29,771 bases of DNA from an uncultured Paracoccaceae bacterium. GTDB lineage: Bacteria; Pseudomonadota; Alphaproteobacteria; Rhodobacterales; Rhodobacteraceae. The position numbers were made by a program, and so were the translations under genes. The stretch is taken from positions 1 to 29,771 of the forward strand of contig CAJXHQ010000001.1 of NCBI GenBank assembly GCA_913054485.1. The letters run 5' to 3'. The notes under the pieces are model-generated. The model saw only the letters and a list, made by a program, of their open reading frames with translations. It was not told where the DNA came from and did no database searches. This document shows, piece by piece, positions 8,011-28,980 of this stretch (its first letter is position 1; each line of letters starts with the position of its first letter).

Positions 8011-8148
8011 GCGCGGTTTCTCGCAGATTTGGAAACAGGCCACAATCTGGTCACAAAATGATACGATCAATTGCACGGATTCGGGCTGAATTTGTCGCTC
8101 TGGCCCAGTTATCTGAGCGGCAACAACCTTGGTGAGGACGAGCATCCG

Positions 8149-12044: not shown

Positions 12045-12327
12045 GCCCGGATGGTAGCGCCGCCAGGCCAGATATCCACGGGTGGAAGATCAGCAGGTGA
12101 CCTTCCGGTCTGGCCGACATTTGTAATAGCAGCCGTACACCGAATGCGCAGAGAACGCTCTGAAAGCGCCCAAACTGTCGAATGCTGCGGACTGCACCGA
12201 TGTCTGCTTCGGGCACCAGGTGCCAACACCGCATGGCACATGTGGCGACATCTGGTTGCGTCACATCACGACCGCAGTCCGTGAGCCTCGGCATCCGCTT
12301 TTGGATTTTGCAAAATCAAAGTGGCTC

Positions 12328-12429
12328 CTAGAGGATGATGTAGAAGACGACAAAAGCCACTGTGGTGAAGAAAAGGTATCGCACCACCACGCGGGAGGTG
12401 ATCAAAGTGAACGCTTCCCACGGTGTCAT
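12328..12429 (-). pseudogene. Short membrane ORF, possibly truncated start of a sterol-desaturase-like gene
   Basis: From the ATG at 12429 the minus strand encodes 33 residues beginning MTPWEAFTLITSRVVVRY and ending in the hydrophobic run FFTTVAFVVFYIIL before TAG. The pattern resembles the first membrane helix of fatty-acid hydroxylase/sterol desaturase proteins, where a charged loop and His boxes would follow. Here the frame stops. There is no clear ribosome binding site. It could also be a genuine small membrane protein. Confidence 0.35.
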
Positions 12430-12615
12430 GTTCGTTGGAAAGATATCGGTCGTAACTCTAGCGTCCGGATGACGCGTCTTATGTCGAATTCATGCGATTA
12501 GTGGGTTAAAAAAGCACGAATGAATTTCTGTCGAAAGAAATATGGTTCTATTATGAAGCATGGCCAACAGGGCCTAATCTGACCCGGGGGGCTCATGCAC
12601 TTCAGCCTGTCCCGT

Positions 12616-12740
12616 TCAATAGAGATCTGACAAAAGCTCCTGCGCTTCGGTCTGGTCCAAGGGGCTGAACGGTGCCACGTCGGGCGCATAACTGCGTCAA
12701 GGCCGCCGTGCCACCGATCTGGACGCAGATGGGACCCGAG
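12616..12740 (-). pseudogene. Probable frameshifted C-terminal gene fragment
   Basis: One minus frame ends in SYAPDVAPFSPLDQTEAQEL and, five codons later, a stop at 12616-12618. This reads like a natural protein C-terminus. An adjacent frame, one base off, gives GPICVQIGGTAALTQ just upstream. Joining the two at about 12692 gives a smooth coding sequence, so a decayed gene is likely. The family was not recognised. It abuts the LysR gene end. Confidence 0.3.
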
Positions 12741-12743
12741 AAA

Positions 12744-13655
12744 TCAGGAGACGATATCCAGGTTCGGGTGATCGTTTACAAATTGCTCGAAGTAGTCGGC
12801 GAATGTGCTAACCACGGGGGGCAACTGCTCGTAAGGCGGGTAAAACAGGGTCAGCCACAGCCAGGGTATCGACCAGCCCGGCAGAACCTCCACAACGCGG
12901 CCCGAGGACAGCCCGGCACTGGTGATGAAATCGGGCAGGACGCAGATGCCCTCTCCGGCCAGGGCCAGCGCGTACAAGAAATCTCCGTTGTTCGAGATCA
13001 CTTTGGTTCCTGCACGGACAGCGCGTTTTTTGTCAGACTGGCGCAAGTCCCAAAGCTCCGCAGCACCCTGGGCGCTGTATGACATCAGCAGGTCTCGGTT
13101 CAGATCATCGGGATGCAAGGGGGTGGGGACACGCTCGAACAGGGACGGGGCCGCGACACAGCGGCGGGGAACCTCGCACAGCTTGCGCCAGATCGTTGAT
13201 TTGTCAGTTGGCGGACCGGACACGCGAATGGCAAGGTCGCAGTTTTCCTCGATCACATCGAGCAGCGTGTCGGTAAAATTGATCTCGACCGAGATGTTCG
13301 GAAAGGCGAGCCGGAAACCAGCGACGACCTGGGGCAGCAAGGCCACGCCCAACGAGACAGGTGCCGTCAGCCGCAATTGCCCTTGGTCCGGACGAATGGC
13401 GCGCTGCAGGTCTTCGGTGACCTCTTCAAAGCCTTCAAGCAGCGGCCGGTAGCGCGCCAGAACCATCGCACCCGCGCTGGTCAGCGCCACTTGCCGCGTC
13501 GTGCGCACCAGCAGTTGCGCGCCAAGATCCTGTTCCAGTTGAGAAATGATGCGTGTGACCGAGGCCGGGGCCAGTCCCAGCTCACGCGCAGCATGGGTGA
13601 AGCTTTTGAGATCGGACACAGCGCGCAGGACACGGATCGGCTTTAGCTCAATCAT
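12744..13655 (-). CDS. LysR-family transcriptional regulator
   Basis: This is a 303-residue LysR-type regulator. The N-terminal winged helix-turn-helix (residues 1-60) contains IRVLRAVSDLKSFTHAARELG, then APASVTRIISQLEQDLGAQLL and VRTTRQVALTSAG. Residues of about 90-295 form the type 2 periplasmic-binding-like effector domain (GQLRLTAPVSLGVALLPQVV, ENCDLAIRVSGPPTD, LALAGEGICVLPDF). The CrgA/DsdC-like sub-type is plausible. It is transcribed away from the ring-cleaving dioxygenase across a 113-nt gap, the classic arrangement for a LysR protein controlling its divergent neighbour in response to a small aromatic or quinone ligand. Ligand identity is inference only. Confidence 0.93.
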   Translation of the reverse strand: MIELKPIRVLRAVSDLKSFTHAARELGLAPASVTRIISQLEQDLGAQLLVRTTRQVALTSAGAMVLARYRPLLEGFEEVTEDLQRAIRPDQGQLRLTAPVSLGVALLPQVVAGFRLAFPNISVEINFTDTLLDVIEENCDLAIRVSGPPTDKSTIWRKLCEVPRRCVAAPSLFERVPTPLHPDDLNRDLLMSYSAQGAAELWDLRQSDKKRAVRAGTKVISNNGDFLYALALAGEGICVLPDFITSAGLSSGRVVEVLPGWSIPWLWLTLFYPPYEQLPPVVSTFADYFEQFVNDHPNLDIVS

Positions 13656-13679
13656 GCGGGGCCCATTATTCTGTTTTCA

Positions 13680-13721
13680 TCAACAATATAGATACATCGT
13701 TGGCTATTCACTTCAACAATA
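13680..13721. promoter_or_regulatory. Repeated TCAACAATA motif in the divergent LysR/dioxygenase promoter region
   Basis: TCAACAATA occurs at 13680-13688 and again at 13713-13721, 33 bp apart (about three helical turns), in the AT-rich gap between the LysR gene and the dioxygenase. A partial inverted element (CGTTGG near 13698) lies between them. Placement and spacing fit recognition and activation sites for the divergent LysR protein. Confidence 0.45.
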
Positions 13722-13768
13722 GGAATGCCATTTGTGATCCAACGCAATCAAACGCCGAGGAACACAGG

Positions 13769-14704
13769 ATGATCAAGGACATCAAAGGTCTGCACCACGT
13801 CACATCCATGGCGGCAGACGCCAACACGAACAACGACTTCTTCACCCACACGCTGGGACTGCGCCGCGTGAAAAAGACCGTCAATTTTGACGCGCCTGAC
13901 GTCTATCACCTCTACTATGGCGACGAGACTGGCACGCCGGGTTCGGTGATGACCTATTTCCCGTTTGGTCAGATGCCCAAGGGCCGTCGCGGGGCGGGCG
14001 AGGTTGGCACAACCGAATTCGCCGTGCCGACAGGCAGCCTGCGCTTCTGGCGCGATCATTTGGCCGCGAAAGGTGTAACCGGCCTGGCCGAAGGCACCGC
14101 ATTCGGCGAGAAGCGACTGGCCTTTGACGGCCCGGACGGCGACGGGTTCGCGCTGGTGGAAAGCGATGCGCGGGGCCGGTCCGCATGGACGGGCGGCGGC
14201 ATTGGCGATGACACGGGCGTCTTTGGCTTCCGGGGTGCACGCTTTGCCCTGCGCGAGGTGGATGCCACAGCCGAGCTTCTGGGCTTCATGGGATACCAGA
14301 AAGCCGAAACCGAGGGCGATGTCACCCGTTTTGTGATCGAAGGCGGCAACGCGGCCGACACCATCGATGTTGAGCGTCTTTCAAACGCGGCACCCACGGC
14401 GGATCAGGGTACGGGGTCGGTGCATCACATCGCCTTTGCCGTCGATGACCGGGCCGCACAACTGCGCGTGCGTCAGGCGCTGATGGATACCGGGTATCAG
14501 GTCACGCCCGTGATCGACCGCGACTATTTTTGGGCGATCTATTTCCGGACACCGGGCGGTGTGCTCTTTGAGATTGCCACCAACGAACCGGGCTTTGATC
14601 GGGACGAAGATACGGCGCATCTGGGCCAGGCCCTCAAGCTGCCGTCCCGCTACGAGCCGCATCGCGACAAGATCGAGGCGCTGTTGCCGCCGATCGCAGC
14701 CTGA
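13769..14704 (+). CDS. Ring-cleaving dioxygenase, VOC superfamily (MhqO/LinE-like)
   Basis: This is a 311-residue two-module vicinal oxygen chelate protein. Module one begins DIKGLHHVTSMAADANTNNDFF with a candidate metal His at residues 9-10. Module two has GTGSVHHIAFAVDD (H219/H220) and FRTPGGVLFEIATNEPGFD (E268), completing the 2-His-1-Glu set for Fe(II). Family members open hydroquinone-type or catechol-type rings, and Bacillus MhqO and the hydroquinone dioxygenase LinE are the nearest named relatives I recognise. The frame is open to 13700, but the ATG at 13769 is preceded by GAGGAA (13757-13762) and starts at the conserved domain edge. Twelve bases after it comes an alpha/beta hydrolase, matching the MhqO-MhqD pairing. 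The exact substrate is unknown. Confidence 0.9.
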   Translation: MIKDIKGLHHVTSMAADANTNNDFFTHTLGLRRVKKTVNFDAPDVYHLYYGDETGTPGSVMTYFPFGQMPKGRRGAGEVGTTEFAVPTGSLRFWRDHLAAKGVTGLAEGTAFGEKRLAFDGPDGDGFALVESDARGRSAWTGGGIGDDTGVFGFRGARFALREVDATAELLGFMGYQKAETEGDVTRFVIEGGNAADTIDVERLSNAAPTADQGTGSVHHIAFAVDDRAAQLRVRQALMDTGYQVTPVIDRDYFWAIYFRTPGGVLFEIATNEPGFDRDEDTAHLGQALKLPSRYEPHRDKIEALLPPIAA

Positions 14705-14715
14705 CGGAGGGCGAT

Positions 14716-15321
14716 ATGTCCACAGACCTGTATACCGCGCAAACGCGGGCGCCGGATGCCGGACGACCTCTGGTCTTTGCCCTGCACGGCACTGGCGGCG
14801 ATGAACATCAGCTCTTTGAACTGGCCGGGCACCTCGTGCCCGGCGGCGGGATCGTCTCGCCGCGCGGGGACGTGTCGGAAATGGGTGCGTCGCGGTTCTT
14901 TCGGCGCACCGGCGAAGGCGTCTATGACATGGAGGATCTTGCGCGGGCGACCGACAAGATGGTTGCCTATGTCGAAGCGCATCGCGCGGCCCATCCCAAT
15001 AGCCCGGTCTATGCCTTTGGCTATTCCAACGGGGCCAATATCCTGGCGTCTGTTCTGCTAAAACGGCCCGATCTGTTTGATCGCGCCGGGCTATTGCACC
15101 CGCTGGTGACGTGGCAGCCGGACGATCAGCCGGGGCTGGCGGGGCGCAAGATCCTTGTCACCGCGGGCAAGCGGGATCCGATCACGCCCTGGCCACTCAG
15201 CGAACAACTGATCGGTTGGTTTGCCGCTCAGGGCGCGCAGGTGACAACCGACATACACGACGGTGGCCACGAGCTGCGTCAAACCGAAATCAATGCTTTG
15301 GCCGCTCATTTCGCGGCCTGA
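14716..15321 (+). CDS. Alpha/beta hydrolase, phospholipase/carboxylesterase (MhqD-like)
   Basis: This is a 201-residue alpha/beta-hydrolase of the short carboxylesterase type. The oxyanion segment LVFALHGTGGDEHQLFEL is near residues 19-36. The nucleophile elbow is FGYSNGAN (S104). The acid is in VTAGKRDPITP (D154) and the base in DGGHEL (H185), so the triad is complete. The protein is cytoplasmic with no signal peptide. GGAGGG at 14705-14710 serves its ATG. It directly follows the dioxygenase, and in Bacillus the same pair (MhqO, MhqD) is induced by hydroquinones and catechols. Hydrolysis of a ring-cleavage product or of an aryl ester is likely, but not shown by sequence. It is convergent with the next LysR gene, with only 6 nt between stops. 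Confidence 0.9.
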   Translation: MSTDLYTAQTRAPDAGRPLVFALHGTGGDEHQLFELAGHLVPGGGIVSPRGDVSEMGASRFFRRTGEGVYDMEDLARATDKMVAYVEAHRAAHPNSPVYAFGYSNGANILASVLLKRPDLFDRAGLLHPLVTWQPDDQPGLAGRKILVTAGKRDPITPWPLSEQLIGWFAAQGAQVTTDIHDGGHELRQTEINALAAHFAA

Positions 15322-15327
15322 GCACAG

Positions 15328-16269
15328 TTAGCGGACGGCATCCTTCAGCGCTTTCAGCGTCGACAGGATCGCCGCCTCGGCCTCAGTCCAATCCATGAAG
15401 GAACGGATATGCGGTTCATTTTCACGCCCCTTCGGACAGGCCACGTAGTAGGCAGTTCCGGTGTCTACGGTCGGTCCAAACGGGCAGACCAGCCGTCCCT
15501 CGCTGAGGGCGCGGTGGGTCAGGAACGCGCGACCCAAGGCGATGCCATTGCCCTCAACGGCGGCGTGCACAACGAAATCCCCCGCCCATCCGTCAAATCG
15601 CAAGAAATGCGCGGTTTCCAGCATCGGCAGGCCTGCCTTTGCAAACCACATCTCCCATTCCGATCTGCCCTGCAAAAGGGTCAGGCTGCCCTCGCTCAGC
15701 AACCGGGCGCGGGTGATGTCCTGCGGTTTGCGAATGTCGAGGTTTTTCAAAAGCTGGGGACTGGCCAGCGGCATCAGAAACTCGTCAAACAGCTTGCGCG
15801 CATAGATCGTGTCAGGCGGCGGAAGCCCATAGCGGATCTCGACGTCAGGGCCATCGTCATTCAATGGATCAATCGGAACATTCGCAGAGATGCTGGTTTC
15901 AAGATCGGGGTGCAGGTCGGAAAACCGCTGCATGCGCGGCATCAGCCAGATCACGATGATCGATGCGATCGTGCTGATCCGGAATCTCTTGCGCTTGGGC
16001 GGACGGACCAGATCGACCGCCTCGCGCAGGTGCCGAAAACTGTCCGCAACGCGGGGGTACAGCAGATGGCCCTCTTCGGTCAGGGTGACCGAGCGCGGCA
16101 GGCGGTTGAACAGAGTGACACCCATATCGGCCTCCAACGCCTTGATCTGCTGGCTGACGGCACCGGGTGTCACCGCCAATTCGTCGGCGGCATTCTTGAA
16201 CGACATCAGCCGTGCGCAGGCCTCAAAGGCCCGCAGTGCATGGAGGGAAGGCAGTCTGCGAAACGGCAT
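15328..16269 (-). CDS. LysR-family transcriptional regulator (GcvA-like)
   Basis: This is a 313-residue LysR-type regulator of the GcvA sub-group. The DNA-binding start is MPFRRLPSLHALRAFEACAR, then MSFKNAADELAVTPGAVSQQ, IKALEADMGVTLFNRLPRSV and TLTEEGHLLYPRVADSF. An effector domain follows (STIASIIVIWLMPRMQRF, DDGPDVEIRYGLPPPDT, GNGIALGRAFLTHRALSEG). The frame is open to 16350, but the GcvA-type N-terminus begins at the ATG at 16269. A perfect palindrome lies 14-38 nt upstream of that codon and strongly suggests autoregulation. It is divergent from the XapX-to-IorB run, which it probably controls. Confidence 0.92.
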   Translation of the reverse strand: MPFRRLPSLHALRAFEACARLMSFKNAADELAVTPGAVSQQIKALEADMGVTLFNRLPRSVTLTEEGHLLYPRVADSFRHLREAVDLVRPPKRKRFRISTIASIIVIWLMPRMQRFSDLHPDLETSISANVPIDPLNDDGPDVEIRYGLPPPDTIYARKLFDEFLMPLASPQLLKNLDIRKPQDITRARLLSEGSLTLLQGRSEWEMWFAKAGLPMLETAHFLRFDGWAGDFVVHAAVEGNGIALGRAFLTHRALSEGRLVCPFGPTVDTGTAYYVACPKGRENEPHIRSFMDWTEAEAAILSTLKALKDAVR

Positions 16270-16572
16270 TTTGGCACATTTACATGGTTTAGCGTGGCTA
16301 AACCATGCCCGCAGAATTTCTGCTTTGTCGAGGGGAAATTGGGCCTCCATTATCAGCTGACATCAGCGATGCTTAGGACAGATGCTCAAGAGACATGAAA
16401 CAGCAACACGCGCACGCCCCCAAAACGGGTCGCGCGACAGCCGTCACATGGTCGCGTTCGGCCAGCTCTCGGACCCGACGCACATTCGTCAGCGCAACGC
16501 ACCTGACATCCAAGCGGCGCTGACGGCACAAGCAACCCATCCCGCGACACTCCGAATGCAAGGAGACCAAAC
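16270..16572. other. Divergent promoter region between the second LysR gene and the XapX operon
   Basis: A 303-nt stretch with one strong element, the palindrome at 16283-16307. The rest shows no convincing gene. Frames at 16382-16576 (plus) and 16386-16574 (minus) have Arg/Thr-rich translations typical of non-coding GC-rich DNA. AAGGAG (16559-16564) is the ribosome binding site of the XapX gene. Confidence 0.6.
16283..16307. promoter_or_regulatory. Perfect 25-bp palindrome, probable LysR operator
   Basis: CATGGTTTAGC (16283-16293) and GCTAAACCATG (16297-16307) are exact reverse complements separated by GTG. The core fits the LysR T-N11-A consensus (TTAGC...GCTAA, 13 nt). It ends 14 nt upstream of the LysR start, so bound protein would block or tune its own transcription and could act on the divergent operon. 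Confidence 0.75.
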
Positions 16573-16827
16573 ATGACCTGGCAACCCTACCTGATATCAC
16601 TGGCAGCGGGCCTCGGGATCGGCGTGATCTACGGCCTGATCGCTGTCCGAAGTCCCGCCCCGCCCATTATCGCACTGCTTGGCCTTCTCGGCATGCTGGC
16701 GGGCGAAGCGGCTGTGCAATGGATGCGCGGTCACTCGGATGTCGTGGCCAAATGCCTGCACCAGAAATCCTTTGCCGTGACGCAAACAGAGACGTCCGCC
16801 ACGTCGCGAGAAACCGAAACCACCTGA
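16573..16827 (+). CDS. XapX-domain (DUF1427) small membrane protein
   Basis: This is an 84-residue protein. Residues 5-50 match the XapX/DUF1427 pattern closely: YLISLAAGLGIGVIYGLIAV, RSPAPPIIALLGLLGMLAGE. It has two hydrophobic segments, a conserved RSPAPP turn between them and a soluble tail of about 35 residues. Its molecular role is unknown. Related proteins sit in operons for nucleoside or small-molecule use and are usually thought to be accessory membrane proteins. AAGGAG precedes the ATG by 8 nt. It is the first gene of the plus-strand run that extends through the hydrolase and amidohydrolase. Confidence 0.88.
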   Translation: MTWQPYLISLAAGLGIGVIYGLIAVRSPAPPIIALLGLLGMLAGEAAVQWMRGHSDVVAKCLHQKSFAVTQTETSATSRETETT

Positions 16828-16860
16828 CCTCTTCACCTCTAGACAACGGAGACCAAAACC

Positions 16861-17562
16861 ATGTCGAAAACCCAAGTCCTCACGCCCGAAAACAGTCAAC
16901 TGATCATCATCGATCATCAGCCCCAAATGGCGTTTGGTGTGCAGTCGATGGACCGGCAAGCCCTGAAAAACAATGTGGTCGGCCTGGTGAAGTCGGCCAA
17001 AGTGTTTGACGTGCCGACGACCATCACCACCGTCGAAACGGATGCGTTTTCGGGCCACACTTATCCTGAAATACTCGACGTTCTGCCAGATACGCCGTTG
17101 CTGGAGCGGACGTCGATGAACTCCTGGGACGACCAGAAGGTGCGCGATGCCCTGGCCGAAAACGCCGCTGCGGGCCGCAAGAAAGTCGTCGTCGCGGGTC
17201 TTTGGACCGAAGTGTGCAACACGACGTTTGCGCTCAGCTGTCTGCATGACACCGACTATGAGATTTACATGGTCGCCGATGCCTCGGGCGGCACGTCGCT
17301 GGACGCGCACACCTATTCCATGGACCGCATGACCCAGGCAGGCGTCATTCCCATGACGTGGCAGCAGGTTCTGCTGGAATGGCAGCGCGATTGGGCCAAG
17401 CGCGACACCTATGACGCCGTCATGGACATCGTGCGCGAGCATTCCGGCGCCTACGGCATGGGTGTCGATTATGCCTACACCATGGTTCACAAGGCTGCGT
17501 CGCGGTCCAAGCATACCGGCCCCCGCCTTGACGCGGTGCCTGCCCCCATCGCGGCAGAATAG
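16861..17562 (+). CDS. YcaC-like cysteine hydrolase (isochorismatase superfamily)
   Basis: This is a 233-residue cytoplasmic hydrolase. Superfamily landmarks are the catalytic Asp in QLIIIDHQPQMAF (D18), a basic residue in LLERTSMNSWDD (R83, aligned with the basic residue of E. coli YcaC) and the nucleophile in VAGLWTEVCNTTFAL (C119). MTWQQVLLEWQRDW near the C-terminus is also YcaC-like. The family includes amidases and hydrolases of small carbonyl compounds, and the YcaC substrate itself is not established. The C-terminus is about 25 residues longer than YcaC. A GGAGA ribosome binding site lies about 8 nt before the ATG. Its pairing with a YtcJ-type amidohydrolase suggests two hydrolytic steps on an amide or imide. 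Confidence 0.88.
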   Translation: MSKTQVLTPENSQLIIIDHQPQMAFGVQSMDRQALKNNVVGLVKSAKVFDVPTTITTVETDAFSGHTYPEILDVLPDTPLLERTSMNSWDDQKVRDALAENAAAGRKKVVVAGLWTEVCNTTFALSCLHDTDYEIYMVADASGGTSLDAHTYSMDRMTQAGVIPMTWQQVLLEWQRDWAKRDTYDAVMDIVREHSGAYGMGVDYAYTMVHKAASRSKHTGPRLDAVPAPIAAE

Positions 17563-17690
17563 ATCCCTGCCTCGCGCCTTCCCGGTTCCTCGTCTGACCT
17601 TCGGCCGGGGGGCGCTCCTGCTCTTGATTTCATGCTGATGCGCGGCCGCGACGGCCTGCGCTGCGACCCTTTTGCGAAAGGACACGAGCC

Positions 17691-19424
17691 ATGTCTGCCC
17701 CTGATACGATCCTTCACAACGGCAAGATCACCACGATGGACCCGGACCAGCCCGAGGCGACGGCCGTTGCGATCACGGCGGACAAAATCGCCGCTGTGGG
17801 CAGTGACAAGGACATCCTTGCGCTTGCCGGGTCAGAGACAAACAAGGTGGATCTGGGCGGGCAACGGGTGATCCCCGGTCTGATCGACAGCCACACCCAC
17901 ATCATCCGGCAAGGCAACAACTTTGCCATGGAGCTGCGTTGGGATCATGTGCCGTCGCTGGCCGATGGCCTGCGGATGCTTAAGGCGCAGGCGGAACGCA
18001 CCCCCGCCGGGCAGTGGATCCGTGTCGTGGGCGGCTGGTCGGTGGATCAGTTCGCCGAAAAGCGTCTGCCCACCATCGACGAGATCAACGCGGTCGCCCC
18101 GGACGTTCCCGTTTACGTGCTGCACCTCTATGATCGCGCCTGGCTGAACAAGGCCGCCCTGCGCAACCTCGGCATCGACAATCACTATTACGAACCCTTC
18201 GTCTCGGGCCGGTTGGAGCGGGATGACAATGGCAACCCGACCGGCCTGGCTATGGCGCGCCCCAATGCGCAGCCGCTTTATGCGTTGCTCGACATGGCGC
18301 CCAAGCTGGATTTTGAGCAACAGATCACCTCGACCAAGCATTATTTCAAGGCGCTGAACGGGCTGGGCCTGACTTCCGCACTGGATTGCGCGGGCGGGTT
18401 CCTGAACTACCCCGACGATTATGGCGTGATCACCGAGCTGAACAGCCGCGGCGAACAGACCGTGCGCATCGGCTATCAGCTTTTTGCGCAGCGTCCCATG
18501 TTCGAACTGGACGACTTCAAGAAATGGAACGACGTCGTCAAACCGGACGAAGGCAATGACTACCTCAAATGCGTGGGCGCGGGCGAGATGCTGGTTGCCT
18601 CGGCCTATGATTTCGAGGATTTCAGCTATCCCCGGCCCGACCTGCCCAAGCGCATGGAAAGCGACCTGCGCCCGGTGCTTGAGTTTCTGTTCGAGAACCG
18701 CTGGCCCATTCGGTTTCACTGCACCTACGAGGAAAGCGCGCACCGCCTGCTGAGCCTTGTGGAAGAGATTGGTCAGGACAAGGGTCTGGAAGAGCTGAAC
18801 TGGATCTTTGACCACGGCGAGACGATTTCCGAGGCGACGATGGAGTGGGTCACGCGGCTGGGCGGCGGGATCAGCTATCAGAACCGGATCGCCTTTCAGA
18901 CCACGGCCTATCGCGACCGCTATGGTGAGGACGCCCTGCGCGACGTGATGCCGGTGAAAAAGATGATGGCCTCGGGCGCGCCGCTGGCCGCCGGGACGGA
19001 TGCCACCCGCGTGTCGTCCTATAACCCGTGGCTGGCCATTCACTGGGCGGTGTCGGGCAAAGGACGTGGCGGCGATCTGATCTGGGATGCGGCGAACCGG
19101 CTGGATCGCCATGATGCGCTGCGCCACTGGACGGCGGCAGGCGCGTGGTTCAGCCGCGAACAGGGCAAGAAAGGTCAGATCATGGCGGGTCAGCTGGCCG
19201 ATATCGCCGTGCTTGACCGCGATTACTTTGCCGTGGCCGAAGACGACATCACCAATATCGAAGCGGACCTGACCCTTTCGGGCGGCCAGATCGTGCACGC
19301 CAAGGCGCGCTTTGCAGATCATGCACCGGCCCCCCTGCCGGAACTGCCCGACTGGTCGCCGGTCCCCATCTTTGGCGCGCCCGGTGCGGCGGCGGCAGGC
19401 ACGCCCATTCTTGCCGCAGAATAA
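17691..19424 (+). CDS. YtcJ-like metal-dependent amidohydrolase
   Basis: This is a 577-residue amidohydrolase-superfamily enzyme. The N-terminal beta-sandwich starts DTILHNGKITTMDPDQPEAT and leads to VIPGLIDSHTHI (metal ligands H68 and H70). Further ligands are H343 (IRFHCTYEES), H375 (WIFDHGET) and D437 (LAAGTDATR), and the sandwich closes with GQLADIAVLDRDYF. This is the complete set for the amidohydrolase_3/YtcJ group, which hydrolyses C-N bonds in amides or cyclic substrates. No signal peptide is visible. The C-terminal PAPLPELPDWSPVPIFGAPG tail is an extension after the catalytic unit. AAAGGA before the ATG is a good ribosome binding site. It is separated from the YcaC-like gene by 128 nt and may have an internal promoter. 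Confidence 0.9.
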   Translation: MSAPDTILHNGKITTMDPDQPEATAVAITADKIAAVGSDKDILALAGSETNKVDLGGQRVIPGLIDSHTHIIRQGNNFAMELRWDHVPSLADGLRMLKAQAERTPAGQWIRVVGGWSVDQFAEKRLPTIDEINAVAPDVPVYVLHLYDRAWLNKAALRNLGIDNHYYEPFVSGRLERDDNGNPTGLAMARPNAQPLYALLDMAPKLDFEQQITSTKHYFKALNGLGLTSALDCAGGFLNYPDDYGVITELNSRGEQTVRIGYQLFAQRPMFELDDFKKWNDVVKPDEGNDYLKCVGAGEMLVASAYDFEDFSYPRPDLPKRMESDLRPVLEFLFENRWPIRFHCTYEESAHRLLSLVEEIGQDKGLEELNWIFDHGETISEATMEWVTRLGGGISYQNRIAFQTTAYRDRYGEDALRDVMPVKKMMASGAPLAAGTDATRVSSYNPWLAIHWAVSGKGRGGDLIWDAANRLDRHDALRHWTAAGAWFSREQGKKGQIMAGQLADIAVLDRDYFAVAEDDITNIEADLTLSGGQIVHAKARFADHAPAPLPELPDWSPVPIFGAPGAAAAGTPILAAE

Positions 19425-19483
19425 TCCCGGTGCGGGCGCCTTTGGCAGGTGCCCGCTTGCCAGACAGTCAAAGGAGGCTTCCG

Positions 19484-19792
19484 ATGCTGGACGACCCCAA
19501 ACTAGACATCACCTACAGCGAAAGCGACACCAAAGGCCGCTATGGCGCCTCTGTCCAGGGTTTTGCCAGCGAAGCAGAGCTGACGATTTCCAAGGTCTCG
19601 CCTGTCCTGATCATCGCGGACCACACCTTCGTGCCGGACGAATTGCGCGGGCGCGGCCTGGCCCAGGCGCTGGCCGCCCGGCTGATCGCTGATGCGCGGC
19701 AAAAGGGCCAGCGCATTGTGCCGCTCTGCCCCTTTGTGCGGGCCTACGCCACCAAACACCGCGAGGAGCTTTCCGATGTCATCCAGTGGTAG
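19484..19792 (+). CDS. Small GNAT-family N-acetyltransferase (YjdJ type)
   Basis: This is a 102-residue minimal GNAT of the YjdJ/COG2388 type. The acetyl-CoA pyrophosphate loop is in DHTFVPDELRGRGLAQALAA, followed by IADARQKGQRIVPLCPFVRAYATKH, the diagnostic C-terminal segment with the conserved Cys-Pro-Phe. The frame is open upstream to 19430, but the ATG at 19484 has a perfect AAGGAGG (19471-19477) six bases away. It overlaps the MFS start by 17 nt. It could acetylate an amine freed by the preceding hydrolases. That is inference from position. Confidence 0.88.
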   Translation: MLDDPKLDITYSESDTKGRYGASVQGFASEAELTISKVSPVLIIADHTFVPDELRGRGLAQALAARLIADARQKGQRIVPLCPFVRAYATKHREELSDVIQW

Positions 19793-21386
19793 CGCCACTT
19801 CCGGGGCCGCGCCTGTCGCCCCGTCGGCCTGGGCCCCGTTCGGGCACCGCACCTTTGCGCTGCTGTGGACGGCCACGCTGATCTCGAACGTCGGCACATG
19901 GATGCACGATGTGGGCGCGGGCTGGTTGATGACCACGCTCAATTCCTCGCCTGCTGTCGTGTCTCTGGTGCAGGCAGCGACAACGCTGCCGGTATTCCTG
20001 TTTGCGCTTTATGCGGGCACGCTGGCGGATCGGCTGGACAAGCGGAAAATGCTGATCACGGTCAACGTGATCCTTCTGGTGCTGATCTCCGTCCTGACCG
20101 TGCTGGTGCATTTTCAGATGGTCACGCCGGTGATCCTGATCGTCTTCACGCTGGCCATTGGGACCGGCACCGCCTTCACGGCACCGGCCTGGCAGGCGAT
20201 CGTTCCCGCTCTGGTCCCGCGCGATGCGTTGCAACCGGCCATCGCGCTCAACTCGATGGGGATCAATATCAGCCGCGCAATCGGTCCGGCGCTGGCCGGG
20301 GTGCTGATTGCGTCGGTGAGCCTGTCCGCGCCCTTTGCGGTCAATGCGGTCAGCCACTTGGTGATCATCGGCGCACTGATCCTGTGGAATTACGAAAGCA
20401 ACGCCAAAAAGACCTCGCAGCCGGTGGTAAATGCAATGCTGACCGGCCTGCGCCATGTGGCCCATAACGGCCCGCTCAAGGCGACCCTGATCCGGTCCTT
20501 CGCGTTCTTCATCTTTGCCTCGGCCTACTGGGCGCTGCTGCCCTTGGTTGTGCAGGGCATCGAAGGGGGCGGCGCCACGCTTTACGGCATACTGCTGACG
20601 CTCATAGGCACGGGTGCGGTTGTGGGGGCACTGACCCTGCCGAAATTCCGCGCCAAGGTGGATGCCAGCACAATGGCCGCCGGCGGAACGGTCGGCACTG
20701 CCGTTGCCATGGCTGTTCTTGCAACGGCCGCCAGCCCGGCACTGGCCTATGTCGCGGCCCTTCTGGGCGGCTTCAGCTGGATTGCGGTGCTCACTACGTT
20801 CAATGTGTCAGCCCAGACCGCCCTGCCCAACTGGGTCCGCGCACGCGGGCTTGCGATCAATCTGATGGTGTTTTTCGGCTCCATGGCGTTCGGGTCCGCG
20901 ATGTGGGGCCAGGTTGCAACAGCCACATCCACCTCGACCACCTTGCTGATCGCCGCTGCCGGGTTGATCGTGGGGATCGTGCTGACCCGCAACTTCAAGC
21001 TGGGCCAGGGCGAACATCTGGATCTGACACCCTCGATGCACTGGCCGGCACCTGAGGTGGCGCTGCCCACGGACGGATTGACAGATCGCGGCCCGGTCAT
21101 GGTCGAAATCGAATACCGGATCAAACCCGAGGACACAGAGGCATTCCTTGCCGCGCTTTACGAATGGGCGGGCGAGCGGTGGCGCGATGGGGCCTATGAA
21201 TGGCGCGTGTTCCAAAGCGCCGAAGATCCGGAACTCTGGGTCGAAGCCTTCATGGTGTCGTCCTGGGAAGAACACCTGGCGCAACACGATCGCGTGTCGG
21301 TTCAGGACAAAGACACGCAAGACAAACTGCGCGCCTTCGATATCCGCGACAGCGGCCCCATTGTACGCCACCTGATCGCGCCATGA
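19776..21386 (+). CDS. MFS exporter (MFS_3/EntS type) with C-terminal ABM-like domain
   Basis: This is a 536-residue protein. Residues of about 15-410 form a 12-helix major facilitator of the EntS/MFS_3 group: FGHRTFALLWTATLISNVGT, LYAGTLADRLDKRKMLI (loop 2-3 signature), FNVSAQTALPNWVRARGLAI. From about residue 440 a soluble alpha/beta unit follows (VMVEIEYRIKPEDTEAFLAAL, WRVFQSAEDPELWVEAFMV), resembling antibiotic-biosynthesis-monooxygenase-type dimeric barrels that occur on this MFS sub-group. It probably exports a small organic compound with proton antiport. The ATG at 19776 is chosen for its GAGGAG (19763-19768). The same frame stays open to 19692 inside the GNAT gene. The stop overlaps the adaptor start (ATGA). 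Confidence 0.9.
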   Translation: MSSSGSATSGAAPVAPSAWAPFGHRTFALLWTATLISNVGTWMHDVGAGWLMTTLNSSPAVVSLVQAATTLPVFLFALYAGTLADRLDKRKMLITVNVILLVLISVLTVLVHFQMVTPVILIVFTLAIGTGTAFTAPAWQAIVPALVPRDALQPAIALNSMGINISRAIGPALAGVLIASVSLSAPFAVNAVSHLVIIGALILWNYESNAKKTSQPVVNAMLTGLRHVAHNGPLKATLIRSFAFFIFASAYWALLPLVVQGIEGGGATLYGILLTLIGTGAVVGALTLPKFRAKVDASTMAAGGTVGTAVAMAVLATAASPALAYVAALLGGFSWIAVLTTFNVSAQTALPNWVRARGLAINLMVFFGSMAFGSAMWGQVATATSTSTTLLIAAAGLIVGIVLTRNFKLGQGEHLDLTPSMHWPAPEVALPTDGLTDRGPVMVEIEYRIKPEDTEAFLAALYEWAGERWRDGAYEWRVFQSAEDPELWVEAFMVSSWEEHLAQHDRVSVQDKDTQDKLRAFDIRDSGPIVRHLIAP

Positions 21387-22243
21387 GGCTGGCGTTGCAC
21401 ATACACAGGCCCGTCCTTGCGTTGGTGGTGTTGGTCCTTTTCAGCGGCGCAGTCACGGCCGCGCCCTACGAATTCGACGGGCGGATCGAGGCCGTGCAGC
21501 AAGCGGATGTCTACAGCCGCGCCGAGGGGATCGTCGAAAAGGTCCTTGTGACCCAAGGCGACTATGTCGAGGCGGGCACTGTTCTGGTGCGGCTCCGAAA
21601 CGATTTGGAAGCCTTGCGCAACGCGTCGGCCACAGCGAGCCTGGCCCAAGCAGAGGCCCTGCTGACGCAAGCGCGAAACAAGCTGTCACGCGCCGAAAGA
21701 CTGTCGTCATCCGGCAGTGTCACCGAAGTCACCGTGCTGGGCGCGCGCACCGAACTTGCCCTGGCCGAGGCTGAGCGGGACTTGGCGCAACACGCTCTCG
21801 ATCTGGCACAAACGGAATTTGATGACACGTTCATCCGCGCGCCGATCTCGGGATACATCGAAGACCCAAAGGTGCGCATCGGCTCCCTAGTGGAGTTCAG
21901 CTCTGGCGACCCACCCCTGTTCATGATCGTCGATCTGAACCCGGTGCGCCTGATCTACGAGGTGCCATATGCCCAGCGGCTGTCTCACGCGGCGCGGGTC
22001 GGGTCCGATGACACCGGCCAACTGCTGGCAACCGTCGAGCTGGAAGTTCTGGCAACCAACGGGCAGACCCTGACCTCCGGTCTGCACCCTACGGCATCGT
22101 CTGCCTGGGTCGATCCGGAAACGGGCACGATCCGGGTCTGGGCGACCATAGACAACGCGGACGGCACATTTCTGCCCGGCATGCAGGTGACAGTCCGCTC
22201 CGATATGCGCCCGGGGCGCGTTTTGGAAGGCCAATCAGAATGA
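21383..22243 (+). CDS. Periplasmic adaptor / membrane-fusion protein (HlyD/RND type)
   Basis: This is a 286-residue secreted adaptor. A signal peptide of about 27 residues (VLALVVLVLFSGAVTA, cut before APY) precedes the first lipoyl half (YEFDGRIEAVQQADVYSRAE, then GIVEKVLVTQGDYVEAGTVL). A helical hairpin of about 60 residues (ASLAQAEALLTQARNKLSRA to ALDLAQTEFDDTFIRAPISG), the second lipoyl half and beta-barrel parts (PGMQVTVRSDMRPGRVLEG) follow. Such proteins link an inner-membrane pump to an outer-membrane channel, but no RND pump or TolC-like gene is nearby. The only transporter is the MFS protein, with which it shares ATGA coupling. It is on the short side for the family. The 139 nt after it contain a small CCCGAC/GTCGGG hairpin and no gene. 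Confidence 0.88.
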   Translation: MRLALHIHRPVLALVVLVLFSGAVTAAPYEFDGRIEAVQQADVYSRAEGIVEKVLVTQGDYVEAGTVLVRLRNDLEALRNASATASLAQAEALLTQARNKLSRAERLSSSGSVTEVTVLGARTELALAEAERDLAQHALDLAQTEFDDTFIRAPISGYIEDPKVRIGSLVEFSSGDPPLFMIVDLNPVRLIYEVPYAQRLSHAARVGSDDTGQLLATVELEVLATNGQTLTSGLHPTASSAWVDPETGTIRVWATIDNADGTFLPGMQVTVRSDMRPGRVLEGQSE

Positions 22244-22382
22244 CCAGAGTGCCCCGTCACTGCCGCACCGCGGCGTCCAAACCGCAAGGATTGTACCGCC
22301 AAGAGCCAAACGGAAAAGACCCGACAGCGTCGGGCGACACCCGAAGACAATCGTACATCCCACATCAAAAGGAGTGCTCGTC

Positions 22383-22835
22383 ATGACCCAGTTCACCCTG
22401 AATGGCCAACCTGTCGAGGTTGAGAATACGCCCGACGAAATGCTGCTGCTTGTGATCCGCGACACGCTCAAACTCATAGGCACCAAATATGGCTGCGGTG
22501 CCGCGATGTGCGGGGCCTGCACCGTGCATGTGGACGGTGTCGCGATGTTTTCCTGCCAGATGTCCGTCGGCGATGTCGAAGGGGCCGAAGTGACCACGAT
22601 CGAAGGCCTGTCCGAGGACGGATCGCACCCGGTACAACAGGCGTGGATCGAAGAGCAGGTTCCGCAATGCGGCTACTGCCAGTCGGGCCAGATCATGCGG
22701 GCGGCCGCCCTGCTGGCCGACAATCCAACCCCCTCACGCGCAGAGATCGTGGATGAGATGTCCGCCAATCTCTGCCGCTGCGGAACCTACAACCGGATTT
22801 TCAAGGCTGTCGAGCGCGCAGCGCAGGAGGTGTGA
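22383..22835 (+). CDS. iorA: (2Fe-2S)-binding subunit of molybdenum hydroxylase (IorA type)
   Basis: This is a 150-residue small subunit carrying two [2Fe-2S] clusters. The N-terminal plant-ferredoxin-type cluster uses C38, C43, C46 and C58 (GTKYGCGAAMCGACTVHVDG). The C-terminal four-helix domain uses C96, C99, C131 and C133 (PQCGYCQSGQ and NLCRCGTYNRI). This is the two-subunit arrangement of isoquinoline 1-oxidoreductase and related periplasmic aldehyde oxidases, with no separate FAD subunit. AAAAGGAG (22367-22374) fixes the ATG at 22383. Electrons from the large subunit pass through these clusters to an acceptor, probably a cytochrome c not encoded here. The stop is one base before the large-subunit ATG. 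The gene symbol is by family, and the substrate is unknown. Confidence 0.88.
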   Translation: MTQFTLNGQPVEVENTPDEMLLLVIRDTLKLIGTKYGCGAAMCGACTVHVDGVAMFSCQMSVGDVEGAEVTTIEGLSEDGSHPVQQAWIEEQVPQCGYCQSGQIMRAAALLADNPTPSRAEIVDEMSANLCRCGTYNRIFKAVERAAQEV

Positions 22836-22836
22836 A

Positions 22837-25017
22837 ATGACACTGACCATGAACCGACGCAGCTTCCTGCAAGGGACCGCGGGCCTGACCTTCCTCATGG
22901 GTGCGCAGGGCATCACGGCGGTCCGGTCCGAGGCCGCAACCGGCGCGCTCGACGTCAATCACTGGCTCACCATTCGGGCCGATGGCACCATCCTCGTTGT
23001 GCATCCGTCCACTGAAATGGGCCAAAGCAGCTATTCCACCCTGCCCCAGATCCTGGCCGAAGAGCTGGATGCCGACTGGGCCGATATCGAGATCGAACAG
23101 TTGAACGCCGATGACCGGCGGTTTGGCAATCAGCTCTTTGGCGGCGTGCTTTATACGGCGGGCAGCACCGGAACGCAGTTCTATTTTGACCCGATGCGCA
23201 AGGCCGGCGCGCAGGCCCGCGATGTGCTGCTGCAGATTGCCGCCCGCGCCTGGGGTGTCGACAAATCCACCTTGCGCACAGACCCCAGCGTGGTCGTTGG
23301 CCCCGACGGGCAAGCCGCCGGTTACGGCGCGCTGGCCGCCCTTGGCGCGGATGGGATAACGGTGCCGGATGTTGACACGGTCGCACTCAAGGACCGGGCG
23401 CAGTTCCGGATCATCGGCCATGACGTTCCGCGCCGGGATGTTCCGGCCAAAAGCACCGGTCAGGCCGTTTATGCCATCGATGTGGATGTGCCAAACATGG
23501 CCTATGGCGCCGTGCTGCGCGCGCCCGTCGAGGACGAAGTGCCGCTCAGCGTGGATGACACCGCCGCCCGCGACATCCCGGGCGTGATCGACGTGGTCAC
23601 TCTGCCCGATGGCGTAGCGGTTGTGGCGGAAAGCCTCTGGTCCGCTTTGGGCGCGCGCGGCCTTTTGCAGGTGGAATGGTCCCGGACCTCTCCCTTCCGG
23701 TCCTCGAACAGCGATGCCACGCTGGCCGAATATGCCGCCGCCGCTCATGCGCCGGGGGCGCAAGGTGCGGTCTGGGCCGAAAAGGGCGACGCACCCGCAG
23801 CGATTGCCGGTGCGGACAAGCAATTCAGTCAGCTGTACCTCTCGGACTATGCCTATCACGGCCAGATCGAGCCGATGGCCGCCGTGGCGGACGTGGACGC
23901 GGATGGCCACGGCGCCGAGGTTCGGGCGGGCACGCCAACCCAATCCTGGACCGCGCGCACCGTGGCTCAGACGCTGGATATCCCGGTCGAGGCCGTGCGG
24001 CTGAACATGATGACCATGGGCGGTGGCTTTGGCCGCCGGACTGCGCTCATGCAGAACTATGTGCGCGACGCGGTGCTCTGCTCCAGGGCGACAGGCCGCC
24101 CGGTCAAGGTGATCTGGCCGCGCGAGGACGATGTCAAACAGGGCACCTTCCGCCCCGCCGCCGCCCAAAAGCTGCACGCAGGGCTGACCGCAGATGGCAA
24201 GCTTGACGGCTGGTATCACAAGGTGGCCACGCCATCGGTCATCGGGTTCTTCAACCCGCTGCGGTGGGAAGTGGCCCGACCCAACGACGTGATCTCGATG
24301 CGGGGGGCGGAAAGCAAGTTCTACGGCATCAAGGACTTCCGCGCCGATCACCTGATCATGGACCGGCATGCGCGCCTGTCCCCCTACCGGGGCATCGGGG
24401 CGTCCTATACCGCCTTTGCCGCCGAGGCCTTCATGGATGAGCTGGCCGAAGCGGCCGGGCGCGACGCGCTGGATTTCCGCCTGGACCTGGTCAAAGACAA
24501 CCCGCGCGGGCGTCATCTGCTGGAAAAGGTCGCCGATATGTCGGGCTGGCACACCCGTGGCAATCGCGCCCTGGGCCTGTCCTTTGCGGGCTACAGTTCG
24601 TCCATGGCCGCAGGCGTGGCCGAGGTCGAGGTCGATGCCGACCGCGGCGATATCCGGATCAAAAAGATCTGGGCCGCGATTGATGCCGGGCTGATCGTCA
24701 CGCCGGACAATGCCCATAACCAGATCGAAGGCGGGATCATCTTTGGCATCTCAATGGCGCTGAGCGAGAAGATCGATATCGAGAACGGCGAAGTGCTGCA
24801 GGAGAATTTCTATGACTATGAAATCACCCGCGCGCATCAGGTGCCCGAAATCGACATCTATATCGCCGAGGTAGACGCCCCCCCGGTTGGCGTGGGCGAA
24901 GTGGGCACGCCCATGGTGTCGGCGGCCATCGCCAATGCGTTTTATGCCGCCCAGGGCAAGCGTCTGCGCCACATGCCGTTCACGCCCGATCGTGTCGCCG
25001 GCGCGCTCGACACCTGA
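22837..25017 (+). CDS. iorB: Molybdopterin-binding large subunit of molybdenum hydroxylase (IorB type)
   Basis: This is a 726-residue large subunit of the xanthine dehydrogenase/aldehyde oxidase superfamily, IorB branch. It begins with a twin-arginine signal (NRRSFLQGTAGLTFLMGAQG), so the folded complex is exported to the periplasm with its partner. Molybdenum-cofactor contacts include LNMMTMGGGFGRRT (about residues 389-402) and RLSPYRGIGASYTAFAAEAF. The catalytic Glu is in PVGVGEVGTPMVSAAIANAF (E688), the GxGExG motif. The ATG at 22837 follows GGAGG (22826-22830), and the longer frame to 22753 lies inside the small-subunit gene. Known relatives hydroxylate N-heterocycles or oxidise aldehydes. 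No XdhC-type maturation gene is in the cluster. This is the last gene of the accessory run. Confidence 0.9.
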   Translation: MTLTMNRRSFLQGTAGLTFLMGAQGITAVRSEAATGALDVNHWLTIRADGTILVVHPSTEMGQSSYSTLPQILAEELDADWADIEIEQLNADDRRFGNQLFGGVLYTAGSTGTQFYFDPMRKAGAQARDVLLQIAARAWGVDKSTLRTDPSVVVGPDGQAAGYGALAALGADGITVPDVDTVALKDRAQFRIIGHDVPRRDVPAKSTGQAVYAIDVDVPNMAYGAVLRAPVEDEVPLSVDDTAARDIPGVIDVVTLPDGVAVVAESLWSALGARGLLQVEWSRTSPFRSSNSDATLAEYAAAAHAPGAQGAVWAEKGDAPAAIAGADKQFSQLYLSDYAYHGQIEPMAAVADVDADGHGAEVRAGTPTQSWTARTVAQTLDIPVEAVRLNMMTMGGGFGRRTALMQNYVRDAVLCSRATGRPVKVIWPREDDVKQGTFRPAAAQKLHAGLTADGKLDGWYHKVATPSVIGFFNPLRWEVARPNDVISMRGAESKFYGIKDFRADHLIMDRHARLSPYRGIGASYTAFAAEAFMDELAEAAGRDALDFRLDLVKDNPRGRHLLEKVADMSGWHTRGNRALGLSFAGYSSSMAAGVAEVEVDADRGDIRIKKIWAAIDAGLIVTPDNAHNQIEGGIIFGISMALSEKIDIENGEVLQENFYDYEITRAHQVPEIDIYIAEVDAPPVGVGEVGTPMVSAAIANAFYAAQGKRLRHMPFTPDRVAGALDT

Positions 25018-25532
25018 GCATGGCGCGGCGTTGATCGGGTCGAACTGCGCCGCCTTTACCCATCAATTGGAACTACTGGGCGGCGGTTGTCTGAACAAGC
25101 CAGCCAGGGCTTCAACATCTAACGTCTGCGCTCTTTCAGGCTCCGCTACCGCTTCGGCTCACAGATCACATTCCTGCTTTGCGCAACCAATGACATTTCT
25201 GAATGGCGTATGCACAAGGCACATTTCCTTACCGCGTTACGCATAGGTCTCTTGGTTTCATCCCGATGACGCACAAGCCTTCCCACCCTCAAATCATTAA
25301 CATGCAAACGCATTGCGCCAAAACCGGCCCATGGCGCAGCCGCAGCGAAACGTCTCTTTGTCCGCCACGCGGAGTTTCAACATCTGCAATGGGACGCCCG
25401 GTTTCGTCCTGTCATGTGTGATATCTTGGGTCAGAAGCGGTCGGCCGAAAAAGCCCAGGCGCTGCCCAACTTGAGCAACGCCTGTAATTTATCCTCTGGC
25501 CTGGGCCATGGCCCAACAATTGCGGCCTCGGC
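25018..25532. other. Gene-free right boundary of the accessory cluster
   Basis: About 515 nt without a supported gene, more AT-rich than its flanks around 25170-25310. A 14-bp self-complementary site (TGGGCCATGGCCCA, 25502-25515) lies just beyond the DUF2842 stop and may help end that transcript. Two near-copies of TTCAACATCT (near 25110 and 25377) are the only other repeats noted. No tRNA, integrase or IS end is seen. Confidence 0.5.
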
Positions 25533-25784
25533 TCAGCCCCCGCCGTTATCTTCCGCATCCGGGTCGGCCTTACCGACCCCTTTGAAGACAAATTTGAACG
25601 GCAGCACCCAGAGCACCCCCAGCACGACATAGACCGCCAGTTCGACCAGAATATGCGGCCGGTCCAGCATGTTCATCACCGTGACGGCCGCCACGATATA
25701 AAGCGGCATGCCGATCAGCAGCAGCACCAGCGACCAACGCCGCCGGGCCTTGTAGCTCAGGCCCGGTTTCTTGTCGCCCGCCAT
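25533..25784 (-). CDS. DUF2842 family small membrane protein
   Basis: This is an 83-residue alphaproteobacterial protein with two transmembrane helices (RRRWSLVLLLIGMPLYIVAA and VELAVYVVLGVLWVLPFKFVF) and the recognisable DUF2842 features YKARRRW near the start and LPFKFVFKGVGKADPDA at the end. Its function is unknown. The ATG overlaps the purA stop by one nucleotide (TGATG), so it is translated as the second gene of the purA unit. The C-terminal tail after the second helix is charged and glycine-terminated. Confidence 0.88.
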   Translation of the reverse strand: MAGDKKPGLSYKARRRWSLVLLLIGMPLYIVAAVTVMNMLDRPHILVELAVYVVLGVLWVLPFKFVFKGVGKADPDAEDNGGG

Positions 25785-28890: not shown

Positions 28891-28980
28891 AGGGAAAGAC
28901 TGCACGCCCGCCCCCTGCCCTGTCCAGCCTTTCCCGGCAAGGAAAGGGGCACGGAAGCGCCGGGGAGCAAAAAGGAACCC

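Follow-up and report, generated by a model that had tools for sequence, protein, structure and literature searches.

A twelve-gene accessory locus of a mobile, widespread type in an uncultured Paracoccaceae bacterium: a possible LysR-controlled unit for aromatic detoxification

Introduction

In Bacillus and Staphylococcus, genes of the MhqO and MhqD types belong to quinone-resistance regulons (PMC6798810, PMC12673573). The mhq operon of Paenibacillus is induced by a lignin dimer and has been proposed to serve in its use (PMC12673573). In Escherichia coli, YhaJ, a LysR regulator, responds to hydroquinone by driving yqjF, which is a DoxX gene, and two pirin-like genes, yhaK and yhhW (PMC5031710). 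The XapX family (DUF1427) was found in a 2005 domain survey only in plant-associated Proteobacteria, and a role in that way of life was suggested (PMC554113). Here we describe a locus of twelve genes, including MhqO, MhqD, XapX and two LysR genes, at positions 12744-25017 of contig CAJXHQ010000001.1 from an uncultured Paracoccaceae bacterium (assembly GCA_913054485.1). The window analysed is the whole contig of 29,771 bases; the genome measures 3.84 Mb in 692 contigs and is 75% complete. The individual families are known, and the combination of the twelve genes was not found described. A literature search returned no study of the gene set or of the pairing of YcaC with an amidohydrolase.

Results

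The twelve genes are a single accessory block

All twelve reading frames are open, and their families were assigned with Pfam and NCBIfam profiles (Table 1). An initial annotation, made from the letters alone, had described twelve intact genes in this order between two gene-poor edges, with housekeeping genes on either side. It had also described two LysR regulators, each divergent from the enzyme genes it faces, and a plus-strand run of XapX, cysteine hydrolase, amidohydrolase, GNAT, MFS transporter, adaptor and IorA/IorB. Reading frames and profile families bear out this description. A cyclase/TPR gene borders the set on one side, DUF2842 and purA border it on the other, and both edges are sparse.

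The window was compared by blastn with the corresponding locus of a genome of the same genus, G193. Matches end at 12081 and restart at 25535, with a 19-bp spacer in their place in G193, where the left-hand genes are followed directly by DUF2842, purA, the nitrile hydratase genes and secG. At this site the window and G193 differ by a single 13.45-kb block. Because the empty site spans the whole block, its ring-cleavage half (LysR1, MhqO, MhqD) and the half running from LysR2 and XapX to IorB were gained or lost together. We infer gain rather than loss because the amidohydrolase occurs in only 7/197 other genomes of the family (E<=1e-60) and the cluster sits on a conjugative plasmid in Roseobacter denitrificans.

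The right sparse stretch contains an insertion-sequence remnant. It is matched in 10 Rhodobacterales plasmid records, and four of those matches are annotated as ISNCY transposase. No plasmid match was found for the left sparse stretch, and a repeat search inside each sparse stretch separately revealed nothing of note. A scan of the window gave no tRNA and no RNA family at gathering score; insertion into a tRNA gene therefore finds no support. Relatives of the cluster occur on conjugative plasmids among other replicons, and relatives of the amidohydrolase and MhqO are frequent on rhizobial plasmids and occur also on Roseobacter-group plasmids. The twelve genes are thus one accessory block of a mobile, widespread type.

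A YcaC-like hydrolase and an amidohydrolase form the nucleus

Conservation was examined in two samples. In a class-wide sample of 239 genomes the amidohydrolase was found in 21 others at E<=1e-100. From a species collection, the best 80 of at least 582 confirmed matches were taken as loci; this set over-represents enterobacteria, and ten of its loci fall short of 15 kb. In 19/21 class-sampled genomes a YcaC relative is found no more than 3 kb from the amidohydrolase, the exceptions (G230 and G358) belonging to one genus, and 74/80 of the best loci have one within 10 kb (all except L068, L081, L086, L087, L092 and L109). These 80 loci cover Alpha-, Beta- and Gammaproteobacteria, Bacteroidota, Verrucomicrobia and a few other groups, as labelled. 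Eleven control loci, three chosen by MhqO, three by IorB and five by purA, contain no YcaC, no XapX, one MFS and two LysR genes. Their MhqO and IorB counts are meaningless because six controls were chosen by those genes. Chance adjacency of YcaC and amidohydrolase was rejected on this comparison (0/11 control loci against 19/21 genomes). The nucleus of the block is the YcaC-like cysteine hydrolase together with the Amidohydro_3 enzyme.

Within 10 kb of the amidohydrolase the best 80 loci also carry alpha/beta hydrolase (34), MFS (30), ABM (28), LysR (27), XapX (24) and DoxX (24) genes; rarer are pirin (10), Dps (10), MhqO (10), GNAT (7), MhqD (5), HlyD (3) and IorB (2). The neighbours in the 21 class genomes are MFS (10), LysR (9), pirin (8) and alpha/beta hydrolase (3), with HlyD (2), IorB (2) and GNAT (1) rarer. 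XapX is near the amidohydrolase in 4/21 when half of the query must be covered and in 8/21 with a laxer filter, the numbers for small genes being sensitive to the filter used. LysR2 has counterparts with 40–47% identity in L023, L024, L032 and L033 and none in L016, L035 or C334 (L185). It lies between the two halves in the window, L024, L032 and L033, and beyond MhqD in L023.

Active-site residues are kept in both enzymes of the nucleus. Asp, Arg and Cys of the YcaC-like hydrolase align with those of 1yac, and we take them to be the catalytic triad; the protein misses the NCBIfam YcaC equivalog cut-off (123.1 bits against 310). In the amidohydrolase H68, H70, H343, H375 and D437, presumably the metal ligands, are invariant in an alignment of 11 sequences. 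Among solved structures, no relative of known substrate was found by sequence for either enzyme.

Several records deserve mention in their own right. A tandem pair of amidohydrolase genes stands beside YcaC in L181 and L196. One amidohydrolase copy (L010 / L026, genome G004) is 83% identical, contains six in-frame stops and is apparently decaying. In a metagenome-assembled genome labelled Verrucomicrobia (L034) the amidohydrolase is 73% identical, pointing to recent transfer or to an error in binning. A Klebsiella record labelled plasmid (L020, CP125156.1) is 5.37 Mb long, carries secD, queA and tgt, and looks like a mislabelled chromosome.

The ring-cleavage half is an optional partner

MhqO matches Protein Data Bank (PDB) entries 3oaj (MhqO, E=6.7e-71) and 4huz (2,6-dichloro-p-hydroquinone 1,2-dioxygenase, E=2e-45). 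His-His-Glu, which we assume to be the ligands of the metal site of MhqO/LinE/PcpA-type dioxygenases, is kept in both alignments. For the MhqD-like hydrolase the NCBIfam MhqD model is the top NCBIfam match, yet at 119.7 bits it falls below the cut-off of 325; the match to PDB 2r8b has E=8.5e-62.

LysR1, MhqO and MhqD occur together with the nucleus in eight places: the window, contig C334 of the same genome (L185), plasmid pTB1 (L016), G139 (L023), G098 (L024), an alphaproteobacterial bin (L032), Labrenzia sp. R4_2 (L033) and Roseovarius aestuariivivens (L035). Gene order in L024 is the same as in the window, and in L023 the halves are re-oriented. C334 is a second copy, with LysR (54%), MhqO (73–74%), MhqD (66%), XapX (72%), DoxX and YcaC (78%), and its end falls in the opening codons of an amidohydrolase. 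Another contig of the genome, C318, starts inside an amidohydrolase (48% to that of the window) and continues with GNAT, MFS and pirin. The two contigs may be neighbours in the genome; their ends do not overlap exactly over 15 or more bases. In C334 the MhqD stop and the XapX start share 4 bp, and no second LysR separates the two genes, an arrangement that speaks for their joint expression there.

The conjugative plasmid pTB1 of R. denitrificans carries both halves with IorAB, Dps and pirin, all in one direction after a divergent LysR. Its amidohydrolase (L016:13995-15711, strain OCh 114) is annotated as two overlapping coding pieces; the plasmid record of another R. denitrificans strain has it as one feature. 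Rhizobium leguminosarum ATCC 14479 and R. johnstonii 3841 have LysR, MhqO, YcaC, XapX, amidohydrolase, DoxX, MFS and alpha/beta hydrolase genes in this order, and these runs also keep one direction past a divergent LysR, save one small minus-strand frame. In R. johnstonii 3841 the run is on pRL12 and extends from RL_RS35200 to RL_RS35160. Ruegeria plasmid pSD25 (L221) and a Pseudosulfitobacter plasmid (L222) contain both halves with AraC genes between them.

Linkage was also examined from the side of MhqO. Fourteen records, evenly spread over 238 plasmid records and including several of R. phaseoli and S. meliloti, were sampled. Within 9 kb of MhqO, 7/14 have the amidohydrolase and 8/14 have YcaC. 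A LysR similar to LysR1 or to its paralog in the same genome stands divergent beside MhqO in 10/14. Four Sinorhizobium pSymB or Ensifer loci have only MhqO and MhqD of the set, and Alloyangia and Paroceanicella plasmids have MhqO with pirin. The 12 Bacteroidota genomes among the best 80 loci contain one or two MhqO copies each, and in six of them (L043, L049, L050, L075, L092 and L105) MhqO is no more than 10 kb from the amidohydrolase; L075, which the locus end cuts short, failed the coverage filter of the neighbour count. MhqO is therefore an optional, repeatedly chosen partner, linked in some plasmids and Bacteroidota and absent beside the amidohydrolase in the class sample (0/21). Pirin, DoxX, ABM and Dps genes recur next to the cluster in part of the relatives.

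The interpretation proposed in the initial annotation holds up in part. The joint locus is real: the genes are not scattered in relatives; the neighbourhood recurs, and the two halves are joined in several other genomes. However, ring cleavage is optional and IorAB rare.

The region between LysR1 and MhqO contains a weak candidate operator (Table 1). A loose repeat, GCAAT-N15-ATTGC, occurs in the same intergenic region of 5/18 relatives. A consensus promoter scan gave counts at chance level.

Export genes and a molybdenum enzyme complete the block

GNAT and MFS overlap by 17 bp and MFS and the HlyD-like gene by 4 bp. These overlaps and the common direction suggest that XapX to IorB form one transcript. 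The 17-bp overlap is found in five loci, namely the window, pTB1, C318 (L030), pSD25 and the Pseudosulfitobacter plasmid, and in all five GNAT ends in DVIQW and MFS starts with MSS. The HlyD-like gene adjoins MFS also in L025, L028, L032 and L033. The C-terminal piece of the transporter resembles the ABM domain (E=1.4e-4, 22.4 bits, below the cut-off of 23.1). In many enterobacterial loci ABM is a gene of its own, placed between those for YcaC and the amidohydrolase (e.g. L020:8410-8955). The attached domain and the separate gene are possibly the fused and split forms of one function.

The last two genes encode a [2Fe-2S] subunit and a molybdopterin subunit of the twin-arginine translocation (Tat) type, and the block has no flavin adenine dinucleotide (FAD) subunit. 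Presumably this two-subunit enzyme is of the isoquinoline 1-oxidoreductase type. IorB has a Tat-like signal, NRRSFLQG, read from the sequence, and keeps the GxGE motif. The genome has one XdhC-family (maturation) gene. The initial annotation proposed periplasmic molybdenum hydroxylation. Hydroxylation is only one possible activity, since in the solved structure closest to IorB (8gy3) the matching chain is the large subunit of an aldehyde dehydrogenase of the membrane-bound kind. In enzymes of the 8gy3 type a cytochrome c subunit accompanies the other two. No convincing haem-protein gene stands beside IorAB in nine loci, the far side of L023, which is cut inside IorB, being unseen. CxxCH open frames occur in 3/9 loci with one motif each, and none is cytochrome-like: L016 has two and the window has one, all away from IorAB, and a 90-residue antisense frame just past IorB in L033 is missing in the near-identical L032.

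Among 385 class genomes, IorB relatives of at least 57% identity were found in G288, G345, G530 and G225 besides the window. All four carry the amidohydrolase, against 21/239 in the class sample. IorB and the amidohydrolase are within 10 kb in G288 and G225 and on different contigs in G345 and G530. More distant relatives (46%) in G332 and G514 belong to genomes without the amidohydrolase. Plasmid matches at E<=1e-150 were limited to two R. denitrificans records and a 48% Indioceanicola gene, which has no amidohydrolase within 9 kb. In the tree, the window, L023, L177, L032, L033 and L016 group together with full support, and in each of them the amidohydrolase is a neighbour. L016, L023, L032 and L033 were found via the amidohydrolase, and only searches anchored on IorB are a fair measure of linkage. 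IorAB as a constant part of the set was rejected, as it is adjacent in only some relatives; it is a rarer partner of the nucleus.

Genes outside the block

To the left of the block, the window and G193 alike have Band 7/HflK-like, disulphide oxidoreductase, rpiA, glutathione S-transferase, serine dehydratase, EamA transporter and thiamin pyrophosphokinase-like genes, an acidic protein gene and the cyclase gene. The long acidic protein (8146-10185) has no Pfam or NCBIfam match and is 52% identical in G193; the other shared genes of the stretch are 73–95% identical. The stretch from purA to secG contains the alpha, beta and accessory genes of a nitrile hydratase (27273-28905). They are probably an old part of the chromosome because the same order is kept in G193, G219 and G098.

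Table 1. Features of the locus, with window coordinates and supporting matches
Feature	Coordinates	Strand	Evidence or remark
Inserted accessory block	12082-25534		blastn, window vs G193 locus L215
Left sparse stretch	12045-12743		
LysR1, regulator facing the ring-cleavage genes	12744-13655	-	Pfam LysR_substrate, HTH_1
LysR1-MhqO intergenic region	13656-13768		candidate operator CAAC-N14-GTTG at 13681-13702, inverted repeat, weak
MhqO-type ring-cleaving dioxygenase	13769-14704	+	likely start 13769
MhqD-like alpha/beta hydrolase	14716-15321	+	
LysR2, GcvA-like	15328-16350	-	NCBIfam GcvA subfamily 263 bits vs cut-off 288
XapX/DUF1427 small protein	16573-16827	+	PF07235 75 bits; TIGR03510 69 bits; both above cut-off
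YcaC-like cysteine hydrolase (isochorismatase family)	16861-17562	+	PF00857; 1yac E=4.7e-27
Amidohydro_3 metal-dependent hydrolase	17691-19424	+	PF07969 333 bits vs cut-off 29.7
Small GNAT acetyltransferase (Acetyltransf_CG)	19484-19792	+	PF14542 75 bits; likely start 19484
MFS_3 transporter, ABM-like C-terminal domain	19776-21386	+	PF05977 573 bits; likely start 19776
HlyD/RND-adaptor-like periplasmic protein	21383-22243	+	TIGR01730 143 bits, above cut-off; likely start 21383
IorA-type [2Fe-2S] subunit	22383-22835	+	PF01799, PF00111; 8gy3_B E=5.8e-52; likely start 22383
IorB-type molybdopterin subunit	22837-25017	+	PF20256, PF02738; 8gy3_C E=4.5e-79; likely start 22837
Right sparse stretch	25018-25532		
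Insertion-sequence remnant, ~110 bp	25097-25206		in right sparse stretch; blastn

Discussion

Gene content, one insertion, conserved co-localisation, common gene runs and kept active-site residues are direct observations. The explanation we favor, to which we give a little less than an even chance, is that the block was acquired horizontally and, under LysR control, detoxifies aromatics resembling quinones, hydroquinones or catechols, a substrate suggested by the gene families. The initial annotation had suggested an aromatic, quinone-forming or N-heterocyclic compound. Quinone-forming aromatics are favored because of MhqO and MhqD and because pirin, DoxX and ABM neighbours recur in part of the relatives; an N-heterocycle has no specific support.

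Inducer, substrates, order of steps and direction of transport are proposals in the scheme that follows, and the roles given to YcaC, the amidohydrolase, XapX and GNAT are those suggested by family membership. LysR1 would sense a quinone, hydroquinone or catechol-like aromatic and activate MhqO and MhqD. MhqO, as an Fe(II) dioxygenase, would open the ring and MhqD would hydrolyse the ring-fission product. The same signal, or LysR2 via a second promoter in this lineage, may turn on XapX, YcaC and the amidohydrolase. These would hydrolyse bonds of the amide, imide or lactone type in the compound or in its adducts. The remainder, which GNAT may tag, would be exported by the MFS_3 pump and HlyD-like adaptor, and exported IorAB would oxidise an aldehyde or aromatic product in the periplasm as an accessory step.

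Several observations weigh against a detoxification unit of this kind. Neither a MarR-type regulator (MhqR/YodB) nor an azoreductase or nitroreductase is among the twelve genes, and MhqO of Paenibacillus, once purified, showed no activity in the assays that were tried (PMC12673573). LysR1 was rejected as a YhaJ ortholog, with 27.7% identity over 130 residues in the N-terminal part. No operator shared with the XapX promoter appeared when 18 LysR1-MhqO intergenic regions and 8 XapX upstream regions were aligned. By BLAST, MhqO, MhqD, DoxX, ABM and Dps are beside none of the 21 class-sampled amidohydrolases, so the nucleus can work without MhqO, DoxX, ABM and Dps. The zero counts of DoxX, ABM and Dps hold with the strict or the lax filter, and the DoxX queries miss divergent copies, such as the annotated DoxX genes of L223 and L224. 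IorAB is near the amidohydrolase in just 2/4 other genomes from the IorB search.

A block rich in hydrolases would also suit a nutritional catabolic pathway for an N-containing aromatic or amide from algae or plants, in which the hydrolases would release an amine and an acid and MFS/HlyD would serve for transport. The rhizobial and Roseobacter-group plasmids that carry amidohydrolase and MhqO relatives point the same way, as do the plant-associated lifestyle tied to DUF1427 (PMC554113) and the lignin dimer use proposed for the Paenibacillus operon (PMC12673573). However, MFS_3 is an export-type transporter family, the block has no hydratase, aldolase or CoA ligase to feed central metabolism, and the pirin, DoxX, ABM and Dps neighbours seen in part of the relatives resemble stress genes. 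We consider a nutritional pathway less likely than detoxification, and the most probable of the rivals.

We wondered whether the island might hold two independent modules that answer different signals, LysR1-MhqO-MhqD and LysR2-XapX-YcaC-amidohydrolase-exporter-IorAB. The window has separate LysR genes, half of the sampled MhqO plasmids have no amidohydrolase within 9 kb (7/14), MhqO is missing beside all 21 class-sampled amidohydrolases and the halves are re-oriented in L023. Conversely, both halves follow one direction behind a single LysR in L016, L035, C334 and the Rhizobium plasmids, MhqD and XapX overlap by 4 bp in C334, and MhqO is linked to the nucleus in 6/12 Bacteroidota. Two separate modules are improbable. 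The block might also defend against one specific antibiotic or algal compound that contains a quinone or amide group, in which case exporter and acetyltransferase would be the main actors. The presence of MFS_3, GNAT and the glyoxalase-fold protein, the relatives on conjugative plasmids and the 17-bp GNAT/MFS overlap in five loci speak for such a defence locus, but it is very improbable, as no NCBIfam resistance model reaches its cut-off and the hydrolases, not the pump, are the most constant genes.

Returning to detoxification of quinone-like aromatics, a bolder form of it, to which we give the smallest chance of all, would make YcaC-amidohydrolase with GNAT and the exporter an undescribed, mercapturate-like route for processing conjugates. 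Amide bonds of thiol-quinone adducts would be cut, the amine acetylated and the product pumped out, while MhqO/MhqD and IorAB would clear the free aromatic. If true, this would be a general electrophile-clearing module across phyla. The hydrolase-amidohydrolase pair extends from Enterobacterales to Bacteroidota and is found also on rhizobial and marine plasmids, and the literature searched describes no function for it. Its repeated link with MhqO permits a guess at the compounds handled: reactive phenolics and quinones from plants, algae and pollution.

Comparison with known systems

The block has in common with MhqR/YodB operons such as mhqRED of Bacillus and Staphylococcus an MhqO dioxygenase and an MhqD-type hydrolase beside a regulator. 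It differs in having a LysR instead of a MarR regulator and an MhqD below the NCBIfam cut-off, and it adds YcaC, the amidohydrolase, XapX, the exporter and the molybdenum enzyme. With the YhaJ genes of E. coli (yqjF, yhaK, yhhW, ygiD, ybiJ and yceP) it shares a regulator of the LysR family, and their DoxX and pirin-like families recur next to the cluster in part of its relatives. The E. coli genes are scattered whereas those of the block are clustered, LysR1 is only distantly similar to YhaJ, and the available part of the E. coli account mentions no YcaC/amidohydrolase pair (PMC5031710). The 8gy3 aldehyde dehydrogenase and IorAB-type enzymes have the same [2Fe-2S] and Tat-type molybdopterin subunits and lack of a FAD subunit, and the block differs from 8gy3 in the missing haem-protein gene noted above for the nine loci. 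With YcaC (1yac, 4wgf) and the Amidohydro_3 hydrolases the nucleus has family and catalytic residues in common. The marine and Bacteroidota-linked loci described here extend beyond the plant-associated setting of DUF1427.

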